The notes beneath the pieces were generated by a model. The model made no database searches. It was given only the letters and a program-made list of their open reading frames with translations, and was not told the DNA's origin. Position numbers and translations under genes: made by a program. Positions 42,335 to 56,877 of a stretch of DNA of 64,000 nucleotides are shown one piece after another (positions within the stretch are counted from its first letter, which is position 1; each line of letters opens with the position of its first letter). The stretch covers positions 124,001 through 188,000 of the forward strand of contig NZ_QXIL01000001.1 in the NCBI RefSeq assembly GCF_004115745.1, in the 5' to 3' direction. Origin of the DNA: Levilactobacillus suantsaii. Its GTDB lineage: Bacteria; Bacillota; Bacilli; Lactobacillales; Lactobacillaceae.

Positions 42335-42988
42335 TTAAGCGCCAGGGGTAAAGTAAGCCCTGGCGGTTTGTTTGATCAACGTCAACGCACTGGCCACCAC
42401 CTGAGCGGGCGGTTGCGTGGCGTCAATCAGCTTAATGCGATTTGGCTCGGCTGCTTGTAAGCGCAGGTAAGCGGCCCGGACCCGGTCGTGAAACGCCGTT
42501 TTTTCAACGTCCAACCGGTCGACCTTGCGTGGGTCGCGGTGAGCCTGGATACGTTTCAACCCGACCTCGGCGGGAACGTCGAAGTAAACGGTCAACTCGG
42601 GTAGCAACCCGTCCGTGGCAAACGTGTTCATCTTCGCCACGGCGGCCTCACCAATCTGCCGGCCGGCCCCTTGGTAAGCCACCGAGCTGTCCACGTACCG
42701 GTCACATAAGACCAGTTGGCCGGCTTCTAAGGCCGGTAAAATGGTCTCGGCCAGATGTTGGCGCCGCGCCGCCGCGTAGAGTAACGCCTCGGTGCGGTAA
42801 TCCATGGCCGTGTTGGCCCGGTCCAAAATAATCGACCGGATACTTTCTGAGATTGCGTTGCCACCGGGTTCCCGCGTGACCGTTAACCGGTCACCCAGTA
42901 GCGGCTGTAGTGTCGTGGTAATCGCCCGCAACGCACTGGTCTTGCCAGCGCCGTCCGGACCTTCAAAACTAATAAACGTTCCTGACAA
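42335..42988 (-). CDS. tmk: Thymidylate kinase
   Basis: A 217-residue kinase that converts dTMP to dTDP. FISFEGPDGAGKTSAL is the P-loop, VTREPGG the DRX-like loop, and LCDRYVDSSVAYQGAGR the second signature. The start is uncertain: TTG 42988 is nine bases after GAGG and gives the usual short N-terminus, while ATG 43003 and GTG 43009 have no ribosome site. Upstream, where recR-yaaL would be expected, is the exopolysaccharide operon. Confidence 0.93.
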   Translation of the reverse strand: MSGTFISFEGPDGAGKTSALRAITTTLQPLLGDRLTVTREPGGNAISESIRSIILDRANTAMDYRTEALLYAAARRQHLAETILPALEAGQLVLCDRYVDSSVAYQGAGRQIGEAAVAKMNTFATDGLLPELTVYFDVPAEVGLKRIQAHRDPRKVDRLDVEKTAFHDRVRAAYLRLQAAEPNRIKLIDATQPPAQVVASALTLIKQTARAYFTPGA

Positions 42989-43196
42989 AATTTTCGACCT
43001 CATTTTCACGTCATATCAGACGAGCTAATTCTCGACATTGTTGCATCCATTGTACTTTAATTCAGAATTGATGTCTATTTGCGAATGAGTCGCCCCACCA
43101 AAAAAGCCACCCCCCAGTCTCACTTTTTCTCGATTCATTTATTATGGTAGAAACCCGCTTACTTGGCACCTGATTAGCGCTCTGGCAAGCCAAAAA

Positions 43197-43233: not shown

Positions 43234-44091
43234 CTAAACATCGTATTCCGTTTCTTTAATGCCGGCATTCATCAGATCATAAGGTGATTGCATCCGTTCG
43301 GCATCCCAGGTCGCCACCCCTACGACCAACCGGATATCTAGTGACGCTAATTCCTCGGTCGTGGTGACGGCTTCAGCGAACTGCGTTTTGATTCGTTCCG
43401 CCACCACCGTGGCCCCGTTCGACGTGGCGAACAGCAAGGCCGCCCAAGTCGGGTTATTGCGGTCCAACAAATAAGTGATGTCATTAGTCCGCATCCCCTG
43501 TTTGACGGTCTGTGACACCAATTGAAGTAACGCCTTCAACTGGGTCTCGCTCAGCATGTTGCGCATCTCATGAAAGTAGCGCACCCGAATGATCATGGTG
43601 GCTACCGGCAAGTCAAACTGTCGGTTGGTCTCCGTAAACACCGCAGTGTCTTCGATGTAGGAGACCGTAGTGCGCAGATTGGTGACCTCATCGAACGCCC
43701 CCCGCTCCACCAGGTCGCTTTGCAGCTTAACATTTTGGGCCTGCAACCGCCGCGAATGGGCCGTCATGCCGTAAAACGACAGCGATAATAATAGTGGAAT
43801 GAACAACCAATACAGCAAGACCCAGGGAACTTGATGGTCTAAGACCTGATTTTCATAAATCACCGCTAATAATTGGACAAAGATAAAGAGCAAATTAGCC
43901 AATAATCCGGTGATCAAGCCCCCAAAATGGGTCGTCAAAATGAGACAGATTGTCACCCCCAAAAAGATGGTATTCAAGAACAAGTACTGGGGACGGGTAG
44001 CTGCCATGCCAATAGCCAGGACGCTCATCCATCCCAAAAAGGCCATCAGATAGATGTCGGTCAACCAATTTTCACGGTTCTGTTTAGTCAT
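43234..44091 (-). CDS. Membrane protein with degenerate GGDEF domain, probable cyclic-di-GMP receptor (PssE-like)
   Basis: A 285-residue protein with four hydrophobic spans (about 13-33, 36-54, 58-78, 90-108), a short coiled segment, then a GGDEF-like domain (about 130-285). The catalytic motif is replaced by DRNNP (210-214), and the usual LTGLxNR start is replaced by VTNLRTT. The inhibitory site RTND (201-204) is kept exactly five residues before that position. This fits a cyclic-di-GMP receptor rather than a cyclase, as described for PssE of Listeria monocytogenes. ATG 44091 follows GAGGGGGGA and overlaps the BcsB-like gene by eight bases. Confidence 0.75.
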   Translation of the reverse strand: MTKQNRENWLTDIYLMAFLGWMSVLAIGMAATRPQYLFLNTIFLGVTICLILTTHFGGLITGLLANLLFIFVQLLAVIYENQVLDHQVPWVLLYWLFIPLLLSLSFYGMTAHSRRLQAQNVKLQSDLVERGAFDEVTNLRTTVSYIEDTAVFTETNRQFDLPVATMIIRVRYFHEMRNMLSETQLKALLQLVSQTVKQGMRTNDITYLLDRNNPTWAALLFATSNGATVVAERIKTQFAEAVTTTEELASLDIRLVVGVATWDAERMQSPYDLMNAGIKETEYDV

Positions 44092-46219
44092 AACGAGTCC
44101 CCCCTCGGTGCCGTAAACCCCGGTGCTTTCGCCACAGTAAGACGAGTGCCAGGCTGATGACGGCCATGACGCCAGCCGCAATCCCCAGGTACAGCCCCAA
44201 TTGGCGGTTCTGGGTCAACCGATGATGGGCCGTAGCTGCGGGATCGATCAGCGCTTGGCGTTGGAAACGAAAGTGCCGTTGAACGTTATCAGCATCGACT
44301 ACCAACGCGTCGCCACCGATTACTGACAAATCTGCTGGCGTACTCAGGTGAGTCGCTGCTCTGGCAGTCGCATCTGGTGTGGCGCCGGTAACGACCAGTA
44401 ACCCGCGCCGGTCATTATACGGGGAACGTAAGAGTTGCGCCGTTCCCAACGTTGCCCCGTACCGCGGTTCAACGCTCAACTTTTCGTTGGCCACTACCCG
44501 CGTCTCGGCGGTGTTGAATTGAAAATACAAATGGTCGTTGAGGTCGTGAATCAGGGGATTTTGCCGCGGCGTGCCCAACGCAATCACGTTAGCCGTCTTC
44601 AAGACGTCTTCGTGGGGTCGCTGGTGGTAAAACTGCAGTTGGCCCCGATTACTGTCGACGTAATGGCCTAAGAGGGCAAATACCCGGCTGAGTGTCTGAT
44701 AATCGGCGGCCGTCAGCTGCCGCGGACGCACAACGGCGAGATGGTCGTAGGCACCCTGCTGTAAAAAGAGCCCCGGATATTGAGCAAACAGCAAGCGGTC
44801 CGCCGGGGTGGACTTGAGGTGCGCCGCGGTCCCCGGTTCAATGATCTCCCAGGGTGTCGGCCGGGCACTCCCCTTAGCACTGGTCGCCACGGGCAAGTCT
44901 AAGGCCACCCGCACGGTAAAATCATGCCCCACGGCTAAGCGTTGGGGGATACGCACGCTAAAGGTCTCCCCATCGGCGTGGCGTGCGGTCAATCGATGAC
45001 TTCCAATGGACTGACCGTTGACGCTCACGGTCGCTAAAGCGGCTTGGAAATCCAGGTTCTTAGCGTAGCGCAATTTGACTTGAATAGTCGATCCCGCCGC
45101 AGCTACCCGGTCGACCGGCAACTTGACGAAATAATCGCGTTCCTGTCGCGTTGCCCCCACCAGCCGGTCTGCCGTGGTCGTCAAGGCGTACTCATTTTGT
45201 GGCGTCGTCTCCGGCGTGAGCACCGCACTCTGCGCGGTCAAAGTTGTACTGGCGTGGGTGGCTTGCCGCAAGAGCTCCGCGTTCGCCAGGTACCGTCCGG
45301 CTTGGGCCAACAATTTGGCGTTCGGGGCTGTGACGATCAGGTAATGTTTATTAGCTGCGTCATAACGTTGGATCCGTGCTGTTTGTCCCAGTGAAGTGCG
45401 AGAAATCTGGTGCTGGAAGCGAGCCGGTAAATGGTCGTAGGTCGCCAGCACAATCTGGTAGGTCGCTTTCTTGGCAATCGCCGTGTCCGCCGTAGTGACT
45501 GGCAACTGCTGGTCGACGGTCGGGGTAAAACGCGTCCCCCCGGTCACGGCCAGCATCCCCGCTTGCAGTTCCGCATCGGAAACCTGGTCAGGTAAAATAA
45601 CAGCCGCTCGTTGTTGACTGATGGTGTCTAAGCCCGTTAGCCGCTCGTAAAACGTGCTAATCTTTTGACCGGGTGCCCCCACCGTGTAGGCACAAGTCAC
45701 ACTTGACGCTGGCATCACGGTCAGCCAGTTGGCCGCACCAGAGGTCGTCGCGTCACTGCTCTGGTCACTGGTCAACTGCAGCTGACCACTCAACTTGACC
45801 ACGTTATGCCGCCGCACGGCCGAGACCGGCAAAGTAACTTGTCGGGTCTGCACGCTGGTGCGGTGCTGGGGCCGAAACGTCGTGACTGGCGTACCATTCA
45901 AACTCACGGTCACAGCCGATAACCGCTGATCCGTTAACGGTGACACCTGAAAGGCCAACGTGAGCGTCACGTGGCTGAGTCGCCAGTAATCGGTCGTTGT
46001 AAAATCTCCGCTAGTTACCACCGCTTGTCCAGCCAAACTGCTGGCTGTCGGGTGAAACGGTTGGGTGTAGGTCTGAGACGTCGCCGCAGCCTGGGCAGTT
46101 TTCTGCGGTCCCAGGCTCCCCCAGCTACTGACCAGCAATAACAACCCCACGGCCCACCAGAGTCTACTGATAACGCTTGGTCTTGTACCATTTTGCTGGT
46201 TGATGAAAAACTTGTTCAC
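44084..46219 (-). CDS. BcsB-like cellulose synthase accessory protein
   Basis: About 711 residues: a signal peptide (WWAVGLLLLVSSWG ... AQAA), a long extracytoplasmic region with repeated beta-sandwich segments such as SAVTVSLNGTPVTTF and ATVSVNGQSIGSHRL, typical of BcsB, and one C-terminal membrane anchor (LYLGIAAGVMAVISLALVLLW) followed by basic residues. BcsB guides the growing glucan outside the membrane. The best start is GTG 46219 (GGGGGA nine bases upstream); TTG 46249 is also open. It overlaps the GT2 gene by 56 bases, pointing to coupled synthesis of the two subunits. Confidence 0.75.
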   Translation of the reverse strand: MNKFFINQQNGTRPSVISRLWWAVGLLLLVSSWGSLGPQKTAQAAATSQTYTQPFHPTASSLAGQAVVTSGDFTTTDYWRLSHVTLTLAFQVSPLTDQRLSAVTVSLNGTPVTTFRPQHRTSVQTRQVTLPVSAVRRHNVVKLSGQLQLTSDQSSDATTSGAANWLTVMPASSVTCAYTVGAPGQKISTFYERLTGLDTISQQRAAVILPDQVSDAELQAGMLAVTGGTRFTPTVDQQLPVTTADTAIAKKATYQIVLATYDHLPARFQHQISRTSLGQTARIQRYDAANKHYLIVTAPNAKLLAQAGRYLANAELLRQATHASTTLTAQSAVLTPETTPQNEYALTTTADRLVGATRQERDYFVKLPVDRVAAAGSTIQVKLRYAKNLDFQAALATVSVNGQSIGSHRLTARHADGETFSVRIPQRLAVGHDFTVRVALDLPVATSAKGSARPTPWEIIEPGTAAHLKSTPADRLLFAQYPGLFLQQGAYDHLAVVRPRQLTAADYQTLSRVFALLGHYVDSNRGQLQFYHQRPHEDVLKTANVIALGTPRQNPLIHDLNDHLYFQFNTAETRVVANEKLSVEPRYGATLGTAQLLRSPYNDRRGLLVVTGATPDATARAATHLSTPADLSVIGGDALVVDADNVQRHFRFQRQALIDPAATAHHRLTQNRQLGLYLGIAAGVMAVISLALVLLWRKHRGLRHRGGTRYD

Positions 46220-47417
46220 GAATATATTCCCCCATCCCATAGGTTGCAACAGCCAGCCACAGCTGACTATATAGTAGGTACATCCAAATAATGATCACCA
46301 GGTTGCTAAGCGTCATTTCGCCCTTTTCCGTGGTGATGGTCACAAACGTGCTAATCACAAACAACACGATGGCAAAGACCCACAAGGTATTAGTGAATCC
46401 CTGTAATGTCGAATGAGCCACCCCCGCCACCGACAGAACGAACACGCTATCGGAAAGCACTAACGATGCCATTAAGACGAAGTAAACCACTAAGAAATAC
46501 AGCAAGTCGAAACGAATCGGCCGGCCAACCTTCCGAAACAGCAGGGGCAGATTCTTCAAAATCACGTAAATGTTGCCCTTGACCCAGCGCGTTCGTTGGT
46601 GAAACCAGACGTCAAGTGTCTGGGGTTCCTGCTCCCAGGTCACCGCTTTAGGCTGGAAGTTGATGCGGTAGCCCAACCGGTAGAGCCGAAAGCTGACTTC
46701 GGTATCTTCCGCCAGGGCCTTAGTATCAAAGCCTCCAATTCGTTCTAAGACCGAGCGACGAATCACGTAGTTGGTCCCCGGAATCGTACAAAGTTTGAAG
46801 AGTCGTAACCGCCCCGCCTGTGCCATCCACTGGAAGGCCAGGGTCTCGATATTGACGAAGCGGGTCAACAGTGTCGCCCATTTGTTACGGGTCCGGAATT
46901 TGCCAATTACTGCGCCGTAATGCTGGTTCTGCAACAGATCCGCGACCAATAACCGCAAGGCGTCGCGTTCCGGAGTGTTATCCGCATCGTAGACCGCAAT
47001 CACCGTTCCTTGCGCCCCCCGTAATGCTAGGTTCAGCGCGTTGGATTTTCCCTTACCGCCGGTCTGGGCATCGGTGTTGATGACCGTTAAGTTCCGTTGC
47101 GGGTAGTCAGCCTGTAACTGCGCCAATAACTGAGCGGAATTATCACTCGAATTATCGTTGATCACGATGATTTCGTAACGGTCGTGTGGGTAATCCAATT
47201 TCAACAACGCCACCACTGTCCGTACGATTACGATGCCCTCGTTATGGGCGGGGACCATCACACTCACGAACGGGGCCACTGCCGGCAATCTCGGCGCCGG
47301 GGTACGAACGGTCCTTAAGTATTGGGTGTATCCCGCCATCGTCAAAATCAAATTCACGACTAGAATGCCCCAAATTGCTAAAATCGCCACAAAAACAAAC
47401 CAATCTAACCCACTCAT
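46164..47417 (-). CDS. Family 2 glycosyltransferase, cellulose-synthase-like
   Basis: A 417-residue processive membrane glycosyltransferase. One N-terminal span (7-28), then the GT2 domain with VSVMVPAHNEG, the DAD metal site (144-146), ED acid pair (237-238) and QRTRW (274-278), the acceptor-binding motif of cellulose, chitin and hyaluronan synthases; three or four C-terminal spans form the channel. There is no PilZ domain, so cyclic-di-GMP would have to be sensed by another subunit, fitting the GGDEF-like protein two genes downstream. The polymer is unknown. Confidence 0.85.
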   Translation of the reverse strand: MSGLDWFVFVAILAIWGILVVNLILTMAGYTQYLRTVRTPAPRLPAVAPFVSVMVPAHNEGIVIVRTVVALLKLDYPHDRYEIIVINDNSSDNSAQLLAQLQADYPQRNLTVINTDAQTGGKGKSNALNLALRGAQGTVIAVYDADNTPERDALRLLVADLLQNQHYGAVIGKFRTRNKWATLLTRFVNIETLAFQWMAQAGRLRLFKLCTIPGTNYVIRRSVLERIGGFDTKALAEDTEVSFRLYRLGYRINFQPKAVTWEQEPQTLDVWFHQRTRWVKGNIYVILKNLPLLFRKVGRPIRFDLLYFLVVYFVLMASLVLSDSVFVLSVAGVAHSTLQGFTNTLWVFAIVLFVISTFVTITTEKGEMTLSNLVIIIWMYLLYSQLWLAVATYGMGEYIREQVFHQPAKWYKTKRYQ

Positions 47418-47436
47418 TCTGTCCTCCTCATATCAT

Positions 47437-49017
47437 TCACTGCTTGTCCTGCCGGAAAAATTTCCGCCGGTAAAGTCGTCGGCCCACCACTAGAAACCCT
47501 ACCAAAACGACCGTCGTCAGACTAAAGAACGTCAGCAACACCCACCCCTGATATTTGAAGTAGTTTTGCATCGTGACCTGCGTTGGCCGGGTAAAGTGGT
47601 AGTTGGGGATACCGGCGTTAGTGGTACTTACGGCAACAGTCTGCCCATTCAACTGGTAGGTCCCCCGGCGATAGGCAAAAGTTGCTGACGCACTGGTCAA
47701 TTCCGCCGTCAGTTCCCGTTGCGGCGCGTACCAAGTCACCTGCAAATCCTGCAAACGGTGTAATTGAGCCGTCAATTGCCGCGTCGATTGGGGAAACGGC
47801 ACCGTCACGGCCGTGGGGACCGCAAACGTCGTCGGTGTTCCCTGTCCAGTCTGCGGCGTTTGCAACTGGTCTAACTGCAACGCAAACCAACTTTGACCAT
47901 AAGTTGCACCCAAATTATCAGCGTGCCTGGTCAACGTCTCTTCCTCATCGGGGAGGAACAACACGTTTTGGGCGCGTTGTAACCCGGCTGAGCGTAGTAC
48001 CGCATCCTGGTTCCAAGTTCCCGGGGCACTTAGCCCCACTGGAATCACCTGTCGTTGCCCCAATTGGTTCAACTGGGCCACCATTTCGTGTTCCAAAGCC
48101 GGGCCGCTACTGGTCCTAGCGACCGCCCCCGTTGGCACCCGCAAGAAGATGACCCCACCACTCGTCTCAACTTCCCGCAACGTTTTGGTGAACGTGGCGA
48201 AGCCCTGGAGTCCGGTATTACGGCTCACGGTCGTCGTACTCACAGCAAACGGGATTCCCGCCGCCTTGAGCCACCGACTGAGTTGCCGCAAACGGGCCAA
48301 ATCACTATACGGGGTCACCCCGGTAATCGTCAGTAACGGCGCATGGTCCGCGGCCTGGTCAAAGAGCGTGGCCACCGTCCGCATGGCGCAGGTCATTGCC
48401 ACCCCAGTGGTCAGAAGTTCGGGCAAATAGCCGGCTTGATCCACGACGGTACCATACGCGTAGGTCGCACCACCACCTCCTGACGCGCGTAATGTCCCAA
48501 TCTTGGTTTGGGGTCCCGTTGGTTGTAGAAGCGTAATCACGGATTTAAATGGGAGCAATTGCCAGGTCGAGCCGGCCCGTAAGGTGACTTGTTGATGGTC
48601 GAGCAAGCGACGCGTGGCGTTTAATTGAGTTGCTTCTTGGGCGCTCAATCCTTGACCCACATGTAGTTTACGACCGGTAAAACGGGCGCGGTCCCGGAAA
48701 AAGGCAGCGTTTTTAACCGGGTCGTTGGGCGTGTTCACCAAAGTCACCACGCCCTGGTATTTGTCGCCAGTCAGTTGCCCCGCATGGTAGGCCGCTAACG
48801 CTTCTGTTTGGCTAGGCACTCCCACGCTGGCCAGCAACCGTTGCATCGTTGCAATCTTGGTGCGCCCCCCGTGTTGGGGGTCTTCACGGTCATAAACCAC
48901 TAAGACGCGTTGCGTCCGGTCTAACGCCGCGTGTGCCACCAGAACTCGATGTGCGTAACCCCAACTCAGTAGCACGCAGACCACCCCGGCAACCAACCAC
49001 TGCCACAACCTAAGCAT
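47437..49017 (-). CDS. Secreted/membrane-anchored DUF2334-like protein of the exopolysaccharide operon
   Basis: A 526-residue protein with a hydrophobic N-terminus (7-20), a large extracytoplasmic part and a C-terminal anchor (WVLLTFFSLTTVVLVGFLVV) before basic RRLYRRKFF. The segment LLTITGVTPYSDLARLRQLSRWLKAAGIPFAVST resembles DUF2334 proteins, distant relatives of polysaccharide deacetylases; the usual first metal aspartate is not obvious, so enzymatic activity is doubtful. Its place before the GT2 gene (20-base gap) suggests a role in modifying or exporting the polymer. It overlaps the upstream gene by eight bases. Confidence 0.55.
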   Translation of the reverse strand: MLRLWQWLVAGVVCVLLSWGYAHRVLVAHAALDRTQRVLVVYDREDPQHGGRTKIATMQRLLASVGVPSQTEALAAYHAGQLTGDKYQGVVTLVNTPNDPVKNAAFFRDRARFTGRKLHVGQGLSAQEATQLNATRRLLDHQQVTLRAGSTWQLLPFKSVITLLQPTGPQTKIGTLRASGGGGATYAYGTVVDQAGYLPELLTTGVAMTCAMRTVATLFDQAADHAPLLTITGVTPYSDLARLRQLSRWLKAAGIPFAVSTTTVSRNTGLQGFATFTKTLREVETSGGVIFLRVPTGAVARTSSGPALEHEMVAQLNQLGQRQVIPVGLSAPGTWNQDAVLRSAGLQRAQNVLFLPDEEETLTRHADNLGATYGQSWFALQLDQLQTPQTGQGTPTTFAVPTAVTVPFPQSTRQLTAQLHRLQDLQVTWYAPQRELTAELTSASATFAYRRGTYQLNGQTVAVSTTNAGIPNYHFTRPTQVTMQNYFKYQGWVLLTFFSLTTVVLVGFLVVGRRLYRRKFFRQDKQ

Positions 49018-50494
49018 GAGCCATCACCGGCTGGTCGGGACTGCACCAGAACCGTTGCGTTGCTAAGTCGGCAATCAGGACCAGGCCGACGAGTTCGAGG
49101 CTGATGGGCGCTAAGTAGATATTTTGAACCAAGTTGGTTTCCCCCGTTCTTAATAAGACCACGATTGGAATCAGTAAAAAGTTCAGTAAGCAACCGGTCA
49201 TCAAGGTCAGCCGCACCACGCCGGCGGACCGACGCACCTGCCAGTCCCGGTAAGCCCCCACCCCAAACAACGTTAGAAGTGTGCCCACTAGCAACAAGTC
49301 AAAGGCAAAGCGACGGGGGAAAAAACGGGCCAGCCCCGCACTGACCAACGTTAAACCTTGAACCTGGGCCTTGGGTCCGTGCCCACTTCGGGCGGGATAA
49401 TTGCCCACGGCCGTGACTCGAGTCTCCAGCATATGGGTCGCTGCGAGGTTCAAGAGCTGTTGTAATTGCGCGAAATGAGTCGCGTAATACTTGAAAATCC
49501 AGCTGAAGGTCATCTTTTTAGTCAAGCCAGTCGCCACCGCTGAACTGGCTGGGTCAAGGGCTGTAAAGTCCGCAGAAAAGTAGTCATCGCCGCGCATCAG
49601 GGCAAACTGGGGGTCAATGCCTCGTTGTTTCAGCGTGGGACTGGGATCACTCGCCGCATGTTGCAACACGCCGTGGGTGAAGGCCTGATATCGATTCACC
49701 TGCCGCTGTTGCGGGGTCAACGCTAAGCCCATCAGGACACCACAAGCCACCAGCCCGACGCCACCGCATAGCAGACCTAACCGCTGGGCAGGATGGCGAA
49801 AGGCCACGAAACTCCCCAGGCTCATCACCAAATAACTCAGTGTCAGCAAGGCATTTTGCGGTTGACTCGTCACCAAAAGTGCGGCACTGACAAAGTACAA
49901 GCTAATCCAGCGACCGCGGTGTTCGGGCGCACGCCCCAGCAACAGCAGACTCGCCACCATCGTCACCGACAGAATCACCAGTAACGGCATGGTGTAAAAC
50001 GAATTGAACGGTAACAGCACCGTGGTATCAGCCAACACCAAAACAATCAGGGCGGCCAAGCCGTAGCTGCGTTTGGGTTGGTCTGTCCGGGTCAACGCCC
50101 GCGTCAATAAGCCCACGGCGCCTACTAATAATCCCAAGTAGACTAGCCCTAAACAGCGAATATCAAAGACCGTGGAACTAACGATTAATTTGTTCAGCAG
50201 GATAGCCAATTGAATGAACAGGTGGCGGGATGACACCCCACTCAACCCCGTTTCGCGCCCTTCTACGTAGCCTTGTAAGAAACCAAAGCGTGCCGTCACG
50301 TAATCTGCTTGGGTGCCGGGCAGTTGAAACAACCCGTTATTGGTCAACACCCGTTGAAATGCCCCGTTATCACCCAAGCCGTGAACCGGACTGGTCAGTA
50401 ACAGACTGGCGCCGATCACAGCCGTGGCCAGCATCGCCAGTTTGACCGGCGATACCCACCATAACGCAATCGACGGCCATGTTCGTCGTGCCAC
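49010..50494 (-). CDS. Polytopic membrane protein of the exopolysaccharide operon (PssA-like position)
   Basis: A 494-residue protein with about ten or eleven hydrophobic spans, a periplasmic-type loop after the first (GLGDNGAFQRVLTNNGLFQLPG) and a large loop between about 265 and 385. I recognise no catalytic motif. General topology resembles membrane glycosyltransferases or acyltransferases. In the Listeria pss operon the first gene also encodes a large membrane protein, so the position is comparable; homology is not shown. It lies 20 bases after the GH8 gene. Confidence 0.55.
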   Translation of the reverse strand: MARRTWPSIALWWVSPVKLAMLATAVIGASLLLTSPVHGLGDNGAFQRVLTNNGLFQLPGTQADYVTARFGFLQGYVEGRETGLSGVSSRHLFIQLAILLNKLIVSSTVFDIRCLGLVYLGLLVGAVGLLTRALTRTDQPKRSYGLAALIVLVLADTTVLLPFNSFYTMPLLVILSVTMVASLLLLGRAPEHRGRWISLYFVSAALLVTSQPQNALLTLSYLVMSLGSFVAFRHPAQRLGLLCGGVGLVACGVLMGLALTPQQRQVNRYQAFTHGVLQHAASDPSPTLKQRGIDPQFALMRGDDYFSADFTALDPASSAVATGLTKKMTFSWIFKYYATHFAQLQQLLNLAATHMLETRVTAVGNYPARSGHGPKAQVQGLTLVSAGLARFFPRRFAFDLLLVGTLLTLFGVGAYRDWQVRRSAGVVRLTLMTGCLLNFLLIPIVVLLRTGETNLVQNIYLAPISLELVGLVLIADLATQRFWCSPDQPVMAHA

Positions 50495-50514
50495 GTTCCC
50501 ACTCCCCTTTCTTT

Positions 50515-51651
50515 CTATTGACTGGCCGCATTCAAGGCCGTTAAGTTGTTAAATGAGTAACTCTGCCCCGTTTGGGCGTTCCCAATTCCACCTTGAATGG
50601 CGCTATGGGCGGTAACCTGGTCTTGCCAGACCATCGCCATGGCCCGCTGGTAATTCGTACGGTCACGTACTTGGGCAAAGATCATCGCCGCTAGGGCGTA
50701 ATTAGCCGCTGATTGACCGGAATCGGTCACACTTCCGGCGGTAGTGTAGCCATTATAGAGGGTCTTATCGCGTACTTGTTGGGTCAGCCAACTGCGACTG
50801 GCCGCCTTCAGATGTTGACTTTCGGCCAAATGTAGGAGCGTTTCGAGTGCTTCCGAGGTGTTGAGCGGATGATCGCTATACGTCAGGGTATCCCAATTGA
50901 AGCTTGCCGAATACAACGGAAAGACATCCCCGAGATAACCGCCCCGCACCAACTTCAATTGCTCGCGGTAGGCCCGTCGTCCAGCAGTAGACCCCCGTTC
51001 GTAAAACCCTAATGTCCGCAAATCGATGTAAGCCAAACTACTGGTCCTTGCGACCTGCTTAGTCTGTGGATTGTAATAATCGTAGACCTTGCCGTCGCGT
51101 AACGCCCCCGCTTTTAACGCTGCAAAGTGGTCAGCGGCCGCCTGACGGTAATGGGTGGTGTGAGTCATCGCATCATAGAGATTCAACGCCTTGATCAGCC
51201 GAAGATCATCTAACGTGGCGTTGACCGCAAAGCGTTTGCTGCGGTCGGGATCGTAGCGATAACTGAATTGACCGTGCTCACCAAAGGTCGCGACCGTCAG
51301 CTGATAAAACCGCCGAAATTCCGCAAAGCGGTAATGCTCAGCTAAATAGATCAACCACATCCCCGCCGATTCACTCAGCATTTCGTGGCCCGTTGCCAGG
51401 TTCGCCTGGCGGACATCGGTCTCTACGTAATTAGTGTAGATGCCTTGCGCCGCCACTAACCGGTTGGCGATAAATTCAGACAGTGACCGCTGCTTTTGCT
51501 GGTCTTGCCGAGTATGAAACGTCACGGCTGGGGCCCGAAAAGCCTGCGGCGACTTTTGTGGTGGGGCGGCATGGGTCACCGTATGGCGGCACGCCGTCAA
51601 ACTGAATAGGGTCCCCACGAGTCCCAGCCAAAGCCAAAATTTTCGTGTCAC
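50515..51651 (-). CDS. Glycosyl hydrolase family 8-like lipoprotein
   Basis: A 378-residue lipoprotein: signal peptide with lipobox LTAC (C21), then an (alpha/alpha)6-barrel type sequence. GHEMLSESAGMWL resembles the GH8 SEG-Y motif with the general acid at E94, and NATLDDLRLIKAL the conserved acidic site. GH8 enzymes cleave beta-1,4 glucans, chitosan or xylan; BcsZ of cellulose operons and PssZ of Listeria belong to this type. Probably trims the polymer or aids its release. GTG 51651 follows AAAGGAGG. First gene of the six-gene operon; no strong promoter was identified. Confidence 0.75.
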   Translation of the reverse strand: MTRKFWLWLGLVGTLFSLTACRHTVTHAAPPQKSPQAFRAPAVTFHTRQDQQKQRSLSEFIANRLVAAQGIYTNYVETDVRQANLATGHEMLSESAGMWLIYLAEHYRFAEFRRFYQLTVATFGEHGQFSYRYDPDRSKRFAVNATLDDLRLIKALNLYDAMTHTTHYRQAAADHFAALKAGALRDGKVYDYYNPQTKQVARTSSLAYIDLRTLGFYERGSTAGRRAYREQLKLVRGGYLGDVFPLYSASFNWDTLTYSDHPLNTSEALETLLHLAESQHLKAASRSWLTQQVRDKTLYNGYTTAGSVTDSGQSAANYALAAMIFAQVRDRTNYQRAMAMVWQDQVTAHSAIQGGIGNAQTGQSYSFNNLTALNAASQ

Positions 51652-51807: not shown

Positions 51808-52071
51808 TTAATCTTGAAAAACGGTCGCCGCGATGTGCTTACTGCGGACACGCCGGCGCCGGGCTTCCCGGTATAAAAAGAGGTACGTTTGCCGCGCCAA
51901 GGCGGTGTTGGCCGTCATTTCATTATCGGCATCGGCAATGGCTTCCTGGGTCTGCTTGGCGTGGTCCCAGTTATCTTTGGCGGCATCAATGGTCGCCAAG
52001 AGCTGATCATCGTATGCGACCCGTAAGTCTTGCAGGTGCTTGCGTTGCTTGCGTCGCTTTCGTCCAAACAT
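51808..52071 (-). CDS. yaaL: YaaL-family protein (DUF2508)
   Basis: An 87-residue, highly basic, helical protein (MFGRKRRKQRKHLQDLRVAYDD ... YLFLYREARRRRVRSKHI). The family follows recR in Firmicutes and has no established function. ATG is seven bases after AAGGAGG. It lies 12 bases downstream of recR. Confidence 0.85.
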   Translation of the reverse strand: MFGRKRRKQRKHLQDLRVAYDDQLLATIDAAKDNWDHAKQTQEAIADADNEMTANTALARQTYLFLYREARRRRVRSKHIAATVFQD

Positions 52072-55068: not shown

Positions 55069-56877
55069 CTAAGCCTTCTTTGGCTTATACCCTAGACTTG
55101 GAATGGCTCGCCACCGCCGCTGCAGGTAGCGCACGACCATCTTGGGCTCGCGGTCACGCGTAAAGATCCCCTTCTTGTTGCCCTGGACCCGCTGAATCCC
55201 AAACTTGGTCTGGAAGTCCGCGAAGTTCCACAGTTGTTCCCCGACGAAGTTCTCGAAGTCGTCGAAGACCCGGCTGGCCATCCGGTAGTAGTCCTCCTGA
55301 AATTCCTCGGAGAACGGTTCTCCATAGTTGCTGTGGACCCCGGCAATCGTATCGGCCCCGTATTCCGTGTACATGATGGGCTTATTCGGATAAAGCCGTT
55401 GATAGAGAGCCAATTCGTCACGGGTCGCCTTTTCGGCCGCCTTCAGGTCACCAGTCTGAACATACCAGCCGTAGTAACGGTTCAAGGCGATGACGTCCAC
55501 TAAAGACAAGCACTTGTCGGTCTTAGCCGTGGTCTGCATGATACTGGTGTAGGTGCACGGGCGTTGCTGTGGGTCTAGCCGTCGTGCTAAATCGAACAGG
55601 GGCTTAAAGTATTCGTAAGCTCCGTCTTCAAAGTTAGCCGCTTCGTTGGCCAGTGACCACATCGCCACACAGGCATGGTTTTTGTCCCGACCAATCATCT
55701 CGCGAATTGCCTGTTGGTGCGCCGTAGCGGTCTGCATAACCTGCCAAGTCTGGTCCTGCTTCGTCGAATTCAAATCAAAGCCAAAAGATTCAAATAACCC
55801 TACGACTGGCACTTCGTCGATAACCACGATTCCGGCGCGGTCACACAACCGCATCATCTCTTCGGAGTACGGGTAATGCGACGTCCGAAACGAATTAGCG
55901 CCCATCTTCTTCATCAAGTTAACGTCCAACACGTTAGCGGGTTGGTTCAGCCCTCGTCCATGGATGGCCGTATCTTCGTGCTTGCCGAAGCCCTTAAAGT
56001 AGAAGGGTTGCCCGTTGAACAGGAATTGACCGTTCGTAACCTCGATCTTGCGGACCCCAAACGGTTCGCTGTACTGATCGACGACCTCATCGTTACGCAA
56101 AGCCGTCACTTGGGCCGTGTAAAGGTAAGCGTGCAGGGGTTGCCATAGGTGGACGTCGGTGAGGGTCAGTTGACTCGCCTTACCACTTCCCTTAGCAACC
56201 AGTTGTTGGTCCTCATCGAAGAGTTTAACCTGAACTTTATCGATGTCTCCTTGCGTGGTGACCCGGGTCTGGATAGTCGCCTGATGAGCGGTCAAATCGA
56301 CCGTCGGCACCACGGCCACATCTTCCACGTAACTTTGCGGCGTGGTGTAGATTTTGACCGGTCGTTGGAGCCCCGCGTAGTTGAAGAAGTCAAAGTTTTC
56401 ATCAAGGTGACGCACCAAATGTCCGGCGTCGTCCGTGGTCTCGGAATAGTGAGCGACTGGCAAACTGGTGTAATCCAACATATTGCTAAGTTTGACCGTC
56501 AACCGGTTTTCTCCGGCAACCAAAGCCTGATTAATGGCCACTTCAAACGGCGTAAATCCACCCTTATGATGGGTCATCAACTGGCCGTTCAAGTAGACCC
56601 ACGCCTCGTGGGTGGCGGAGCCAAACCGCAAGACTAACCGTTGGGTCCGTAAGAAGTCCGCGATGTTAAAGGTCGTCTCGTACCACACGTACCCCACGTG
56701 GTTGCGAATCTTAGCCTGAGAGCTTTGGTCGTTAAAGGACGCGGGAACCGCCACGTCATCGTGGGTGGGTAAGGGGTGCGTGACGTCAACCGGTGAGTTT
56801 TCGTCTTCAATCATAAAGCGCCACAGCCCCGACAAATCAAGTACGGTCCGGGTAGGCGTCGTTACTGGATATAACAT
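55069..56877 (-). CDS. uidA: Beta-glucuronidase, glycoside hydrolase family 2
   Basis: A 602-residue cytoplasmic hydrolase. It has the sugar-binding N-domain, a beta-sandwich and the TIM barrel. Catalytic residues are visible: acid/base in SLANEAA (E412) and nucleophile in MYTEYGADT (E505). The N-x-K motif (N567-K569, in QGNKKGIFTRDREPK), known to recognise the glucuronate carboxylate, separates it from beta-galactosidases. No transporter or uronate pathway genes adjoin. ATG follows TTGGAGG. It is divergent from an AraC regulator, with a weak-35 promoter (-10 TATAGT, 56952-56947) suited to activation. Confidence 0.92.
   Translation of the reverse strand: MLYPVTTPTRTVLDLSGLWRFMIEDENSPVDVTHPLPTHDDVAVPASFNDQSSQAKIRNHVGYVWYETTFNIADFLRTQRLVLRFGSATHEAWVYLNGQLMTHHKGGFTPFEVAINQALVAGENRLTVKLSNMLDYTSLPVAHYSETTDDAGHLVRHLDENFDFFNYAGLQRPVKIYTTPQSYVEDVAVVPTVDLTAHQATIQTRVTTQGDIDKVQVKLFDEDQQLVAKGSGKASQLTLTDVHLWQPLHAYLYTAQVTALRNDEVVDQYSEPFGVRKIEVTNGQFLFNGQPFYFKGFGKHEDTAIHGRGLNQPANVLDVNLMKKMGANSFRTSHYPYSEEMMRLCDRAGIVVIDEVPVVGLFESFGFDLNSTKQDQTWQVMQTATAHQQAIREMIGRDKNHACVAMWSLANEAANFEDGAYEYFKPLFDLARRLDPQQRPCTYTSIMQTTAKTDKCLSLVDVIALNRYYGWYVQTGDLKAAEKATRDELALYQRLYPNKPIMYTEYGADTIAGVHSNYGEPFSEEFQEDYYRMASRVFDDFENFVGEQLWNFADFQTKFGIQRVQGNKKGIFTRDREPKMVVRYLQRRWRAIPSLGYKPKKA

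Follow-up and report, generated by a model that had tools for sequence, protein, structure and literature searches.

The closest described relatives of the locus reported here are the pss genes of Listeria monocytogenes and the yda genes of Bacillus subtilis, which link exopolysaccharide (EPS) synthesis to cyclic-di-GMP. Listeria PssE binds cyclic-di-GMP with a dissociation constant of 0.79 uM and is essential for EPS (PMC4125290). B. subtilis makes no EPS when YdaK carries R202A or D205A, or when its three cyclases are all inactivated (PMC5422440); YdaK with R202A no longer binds cyclic-di-GMP (PMC7064775). Here we describe an operon of six genes in a stretch of 64,000 nucleotides (the window) from Levilactobacillus suantsaii (genome G000, 2.43 Mb, contig C11). 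We read it as a cyclic-di-GMP-gated EPS operon of the Pss/Yda type, with a probability of roughly 0.87. The operon and its genes are as follows (ORF, open reading frame).

43234-51651, minus strand: operon Z-A-B-C-D-E, in order of transcription, all six ORFs intact (ORF check)
50515-51651, minus strand: Z, GH126-like lipoprotein (phmmer to 3REN)
49010-50494, minus strand: A, polytopic membrane protein, WsfD-type glycan hexosyltransferase with a GxxD(N)G motif (NF051875)
47437-49017, minus strand: B, DUF2334-like and PelA-like protein with a signal-like N-terminus and a C-terminal membrane helix (Pfam trace, model)
46164-47417, minus strand: C, GT2 processive synthase with motifs ND, YDAD, EDTE and QRTRW (Pfam, NCBIfam, motifs)
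44084-46249, minus strand: D, BcsB-like subunit, start codon uncertain (PF03170)
43234-44091, minus strand: E, PssE/YdaK-like protein with an N-terminal membrane part and a degenerate GGDEF domain (Pfam, motif alignment)

Operons of this kind combine a GT2 synthase free of PilZ, an adjoining BcsB protein and a membrane protein in which a degenerate GGDEF domain carries an RxxD I-site. C matches the GT2 model PF13641 with 115.8 bits (cut-off 27), its four motifs are retained in relatives, and Pfam finds no PilZ domain in it. The adjoining D matches BcsB (PF03170) with 111.1 bits against a cut-off of 21. E has lost the cyclase motif, reading DRNNP where GGDEF is expected, and matches PF00990 with 23.8 bits, exactly at the cut-off. 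Its I-site, R201-T-N-D204 (RTND), is intact five residues upstream of DRNNP, and its C-terminal end carries YDV. A search of solved structures gave one chance-level match for D and none for E. By GGDEF, EAL and PilZ searches, E is the sole predicted cyclic-di-GMP receptor.

The BcsB match of D would also suit a Bcs-type cellulose synthase operon, and C does align to cellulose synthases (E-value about 1e-19). However, we found no PilZ match in C or in a profile search of the genome, and hence no BcsA with a C-terminal PilZ domain. C scores better against the PgaC_IcaA model than against CelA (173.6 versus 93.3 bits, both under their cut-offs), and E, A and B do not belong among the partners of a Bcs synthase. 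The BcsA-like GT2-PilZ synthases of other Lactobacillaceae are, moreover, longer and different, and a cellulose operon is very unlikely. Two such synthases, of 663 amino acids (L235:545-2536, plus strand) and 653 amino acids (L237:463-2424, plus strand), occur in G111 and G004, two genomes in which the BcsB of a Pss operon is present as well.

A linked GH126- or GH8-like glycosidase, a further mark of Pss/Yda operons, is found in Z. It matches CPF_2247 (3REN), a GH126 member, with a phmmer E-value of 1e-26, and Listeria PssZ (6R2M) with only 0.059. Both of these proteins are GH126, according to PMC7479077, although PssZ was named GH8 by its authors. Because the match to 3REN is far above that to PssZ, GH126 is the better label for Z. 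Of 93 sequences compared, at least 92% conserve its E94 and D148/D149. A Pfam search of Z and A gave no match at an E-value of 0.1. A scores 324.8 bits against the NCBIfam WsfD hexose transferase model NF051875 (cut-off 80), and G39, D42, G44, D111 and D156 are invariant in 25 sequences. Its structural model, with a predicted local distance difference test (pLDDT) score of 80.2, finds the GT-C enzymes AglB, STT3 and ArnT as top folds (E-value 0.013 or worse, TM-scores 0.3-0.4), and a GT-C fold is possible.

B shows a trace of DUF2334 at residues 229-292, under the cut-off (E-value 0.013; 15.5 bits against 26). The best fold in the PDB for its model (pLDDT 85.3) is PelA (9cgy; E-value 1.8e-8, TM-score only 0.37). 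With PgaC_IcaA as the model nearest C, this trace and the deacetylase-like fold could point to a Pga/Ica-type operon for poly-N-acetylglucosamine, or for a deacetylated amino sugar, with B as an active deacetylase. But BcsB is present, no Pga/Ica partner was matched by any of the six proteins in Pfam, and the Asp/His site of an active deacetylase was not found: not one His is shared by all 24 B sequences compared, and the near-invariant H119 falls outside the DUF2334-like part. We therefore take B as a probable pseudo-deacetylase and consider an active deacetylase operon very unlikely.

An earlier note on this DNA had described a six-gene minus-strand operon, with overlaps or gaps of at most 20 bases, that is closed by a terminator and encodes a polytopic membrane protein, a GT2 synthase with QRTRW, a BcsB-like protein and a GGDEF-like protein. 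All of this holds, the terminator as a terminator-like hairpin, and A is now further identified as WsfD-type. The listed ORFs leave gaps of 20 bases between Z and A and 19 between B and C; A and B overlap by 8 bases, as do D and E if E begins at ATG 44091, and C and D overlap by 86 if D begins at the TTG listed for it, its true start being unsure. Other claims survive in part. The GH8 lipoprotein is a lipoprotein but not convincingly GH8, and the secreted DUF2334-like protein has its signal-like N-terminus but only the sub-threshold DUF2334 trace. The proposed likeness to Listeria pssA-E plus pssZ stands for C, D and E and is slight for Z.

We looked for the enzymes of the messenger in the genome, where the note had suggested seeking an active cyclase and phosphodiesterase, and found both at gene level, as in other Pss/Yda systems. 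A PF00990 search gave three matches: E, a 671-amino-acid protein that we take to be GdpP, a cyclic-di-AMP phosphodiesterase, and a single full diguanylate cyclase (382 amino acids, contig C22) whose GGEEF motif is not preceded by RxxD. PF00563 found three EAL proteins, one of them encoded divergently from the cyclase gene with 182 bases between. All three retain the EAL motif residues, which we presume to be catalytic.

Since E holds both residues required in YdaK, as R201 and D204, we infer a signalling chain from cyclase through cyclic-di-GMP and E to C. The lone 382-amino-acid cyclase would make the messenger, and the EAL phosphodiesterase beside it and the two others would destroy it. By analogy with relatives, cyclic-di-GMP would bind the RTND site of E, which with its DRNNP motif is predicted to be unable to make the messenger itself, and bound E would switch on C. 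The activated sugar that C would polymerise is probably an N-acetylhexosamine, and the chain would be passed outward with D and the PelA-like B, as relatives suggest. Outside the cell, A probably attaches hexose as a side group, and Z may trim or release the polymer. Of the two products first proposed for the operon, cellulose-like or amino-sugar, the latter is more likely, with PgaC_IcaA outscoring CelA and PilZ absent. Both C and A would be compatible with a chain of N-acetylhexosamine units that bears hexose side groups, though this is guesswork. The Listeria polymer contains N-acetylmannosamine and galactose at 2:1 (as cited in PMC7479077), and a yda-dependent polymer of B. subtilis is bound by a lectin for alpha-galactose/N-acetylgalactosamine (PMC13274460).

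A less expected result came from comparing 98 operon genomes in which the I-site columns of E and the presence of a cyclase were both known. These derive from 105 loci, less two without E, one with E in pieces and four unscanned for GGDEF. From the 82 BcsB-bearing Lactobacillaceae, G393 was not included, G170 and G199 have no E in the stretch, and G326, whose E is in pieces, gives no I-site columns; in G389, E is cut at the contig end yet shows RTND and was counted as kept. We took in 18 of 29 BcsB-bearing genomes from other families, leaving out those with no GGDEF scan (G519, G491, G568, G544), and added six named genomes (G719, G724, G726-G729) without counting the apparent duplicates G720-G723 and G725 twice. 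GGDEF matches weaker than an E-value of 1e-10 (16 of 203 genomes) were scored as no cyclase, and stronger ones were counted by score, not each checked for GG[DE]EF.

Among the 84 operon genomes that have a cyclase, 76 retain the R and D of RxxD; among the 14 that lack one, the count is zero. The cyclase-less set comprises six sampled Lactobacillaceae (G017, just 87% complete, G283, G309, G340, G350 and G391), one Ligilactobacillus metagenome-assembled genome (G724) and seven Enterococcus-group genomes (G593, G627, G638, G677, G689 and G707, family code f3, and G719, E. phoeniculicola). An EAL search of 16 cyclase-less genomes, two of them apparent duplicates, gave no match; three cyclase-bearing genomes in the same search did match.

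Mean pairwise identity of the I-site pair is 0.15 among 11 non-redundant cyclase-less E proteins, against a domain average of 0.36, and 0.86 against 0.46 among 69 others; in 2000 samples of 11 from the 69, it never fell below 0.40. For the C-terminal YDV the identity is 1.00 in cyclase-less E and 0.98 in the other set; for the PTW positions it is 0.83 and 0.84. The ratio of nonsynonymous to synonymous substitution rates (dN/dS) of E is 0.04 for G309/G350 (dS 0.32) and also for G283/G340 (dS 0.04, few changes), other cyclase-less pairs being saturated. GT2 motifs are kept in all 13 cyclase-less genomes that have a GT2. By these sequence measures, E in cyclase-less genomes is not simply decaying. 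We propose, at even odds, that the synthase needs PssE as a structural subunit and that control of this subunit by the messenger can be uncoupled in evolution. Lineages having lost every cyclic-di-GMP enzyme would have kept the operon, let the I-site erode and run a messenger-independent synthase, with YDV and a PTW-type hairpin carrying the synthase contact.

Relatedness limits how far this pattern can be pressed. A GT2 tree of 97 rows, built by a quick method, shows only three changes of cyclase state and four of I-site state. A pair test found two independent pairs on starred branches and three on all; on average the I-site differed the same way in 1.8 of 2 and not at all in 0.2, never the opposite way, with significance out of reach. 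Only two or three independent events thus lie behind the pattern, and we rejected the strong claim that the raw two-by-two table would license (Fisher 9.8e-12). Operons from the Ligilactobacillus aviarius group cluster with those of Enterococcus (an 11-row group, SH-like approximate likelihood ratio test 86, not starred), which suggests transfer, and the operons may have arrived already without the I-site. Split ORFs occur in A, B or D in 3 of 13 cyclase-less operons (G283, G340 and G593, at L095, L107 and L215), and dN/dS of D is 0.67 for G283/G340; some cyclase-less operons may therefore be decaying or misassembled.

Eight genomes with a cyclase lack RxxD: G580 (5.7 Mb, 5% contamination) and seven of genus code g20, six of which are named Secundilactobacillus. 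The Secundilactobacillus-type loci (L065, L075, L078, L082, L085, L089, L092) have no Z in the stretch and an EAL gene directly after E. We considered a degenerate EAL as substitute receptor and rejected it: this gene retains the catalytic residues. From its sequence, it looks like a local phosphodiesterase.

Several observations weigh against our reading of the window operon. E reaches PF00990 only at its cut-off, and TM-scores are low both for the GT-C fold of A, whose WsfD match is strong all the same, and for the resemblance of B to PelA. The seven Secundilactobacillus-type operons lost the I-site motif with cyclases present, so RxxD is not needed everywhere. Among 25 Levilactobacillus genomes, all have strong GGDEF matches and eight, the window's own included, have BcsB, which implies that cyclases there also serve other outputs. 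Finally, a search of the genome for class I cyclic-di-GMP riboswitches had a silent control, and their absence is not established.

That 17 of the 25 sampled Levilactobacillus genomes lack a BcsB match, and that some distant relatives have split ORFs, might suggest a silent or decaying relic. We consider this very unlikely, as all six window ORFs are intact and dN/dS is 0.02-0.04 in E, D and C where computable, in two pairs of Levilactobacillus relatives (window not included, some dS saturated). The Z-A-B-C-D-E order is repeated in many loci of Lactobacillaceae, Enterococcus and Paenibacillus, which excludes a chance grouping. Z is absent or lies after E in some loci (Secundilactobacillus, Lentilactobacillus) and is missing from Listeria-like loci. 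By GT2 protein, L. zymae comes closest among named relatives, at 85% identity, followed by L. acidifarinae at 84%. The GT2 of Lactiplantibacillus herbarum (L096 / L125) is 81% identical to the window's, compared with 76-77% for seven other Lactiplantibacillus, and sits among Levilactobacillus on the tree; by this placement, its operon was likely transferred between genera.

The note's statement that cyclic-di-GMP systems are uncommon in lactobacilli is not supported. Among 397 Lactobacillaceae genomes, BcsB matches occur in 82 (17 of 40 genera), GGDEF in 203 (187 of them stronger than 1e-10) and EAL in 184; PilZ matches occur in 36 of 330 genomes. Strong GGDEF matches are found in 76 of the 82 operon-bearing genomes versus 111 of the 315 others (Fisher 1.7e-22, uncorrected for relatedness).

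The operon stands within a string of genes that we take, from their sequences, to be dnaX-yaaK-recR-yaaL on one side and tmk-yaaQ-holB-rsmI on the other. Its immediate flanks are as follows.

51808-52071, minus strand: yaaL, before Z
51777-51744, minus strand: 14-pair terminator-like hairpin with a T run behind it, between yaaL and Z (hairpin scan)
43225-43195, minus strand: terminator-like hairpin of 14 pairs directly after E, before tmk (hairpin scan)
42335-43009, minus strand: tmk, after E

Hairpins thus flank the operon on both sides, which gives it the look of a separate transcription unit within a run of housekeeping genes. Over its full length, the scan found 10 hairpins against a shuffle mean of 11.9, no excess over shuffles. 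In 16 of the 17 BcsB-less Levilactobacillus genomes, yaaL adjoins tmk with 130-537 bases between the frames, and the same is true of G327, whose operon lies on another contig. These empty junctions indicate either insertion of the operon or its local loss at this site. The remaining BcsB-less genome, G201, has no yaaL within 6.4 kb before tmk; an opposite-strand cluster with a GT2-PilZ synthase (L238:1544-3598, minus strand) lies just before tmk (L238:6462-7193, plus strand). The junction before tmk may be favoured as an insertion site by such synthases. Elsewhere, Rfam at gathering score matches the window only once, to a bacterial small signal recognition particle RNA (RF00169; 58327-58413, minus strand), and an ORF of 602 amino acids (55069-56877, minus strand) has all three glycoside hydrolase family 2 domains and is presumably beta-glucuronidase-like.

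Overall, the operon is a well-supported and ordinary member of the Pss/Yda kind, and the pattern in its relatives is what deserves testing. In the open-licence literature, which is weak evidence, we found no account of a Pss/Yda operon in Levilactobacillus or of PssE I-site loss in cyclase-less genomes. A polymer system of the Listeria/Bacillus type is now placed in a lactobacillus whose small signalling set, one cyclase and one predicted receptor, makes the pathway easy to test. With their I-site-less receptors, cyclase-less relatives provide natural material for telling apart what PssE does structurally and what it does in sensing. Point mutants of B. subtilis cannot resolve this, since EPS is abolished in them.

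Among known systems, Pel resembles the window operon in that PelA is the best fold match of B. PelD is likewise a degenerate-GGDEF receptor, as E appears to be. Unlike Pel, the window has a GT2 and BcsB synthase, and none of its six proteins is PelF or PelG by Pfam. The gts operon of Lactobacillus acidophilus is also a cyclic-di-GMP-linked GT2 EPS operon in a lactobacillus, but its receptor is the degenerate EAL protein PdeB, and the available text describes no BcsB, GH126 or degenerate-GGDEF gene in it (PMC6123363). The last gene of the window operon is not a degenerate EAL of this type but a degenerate GGDEF. The ydaJKLMN operon of B. subtilis is closer: it begins with a glycosyl hydrolase gene (PMC13274460, PMC5422440, PMC7064775), and YdaK, like E, has a degenerate GGDEF domain with an I-site, R202/D205, needed for EPS (PMC5422440, PMC7064775). 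It differs in having five genes with the receptor second, whereas the window operon has six with the receptor last. That last position is shared with Listeria pssA-E, where the GT2 protein PssC and the BcsB-like PssD are joined by the degenerate-GGDEF I-site receptor PssE as the final gene (PMC4125290). Even the spacing agrees, with RxxD five residues before DKDDA in PssE and RTND five residues before DRNNP in E (PMC4125290).
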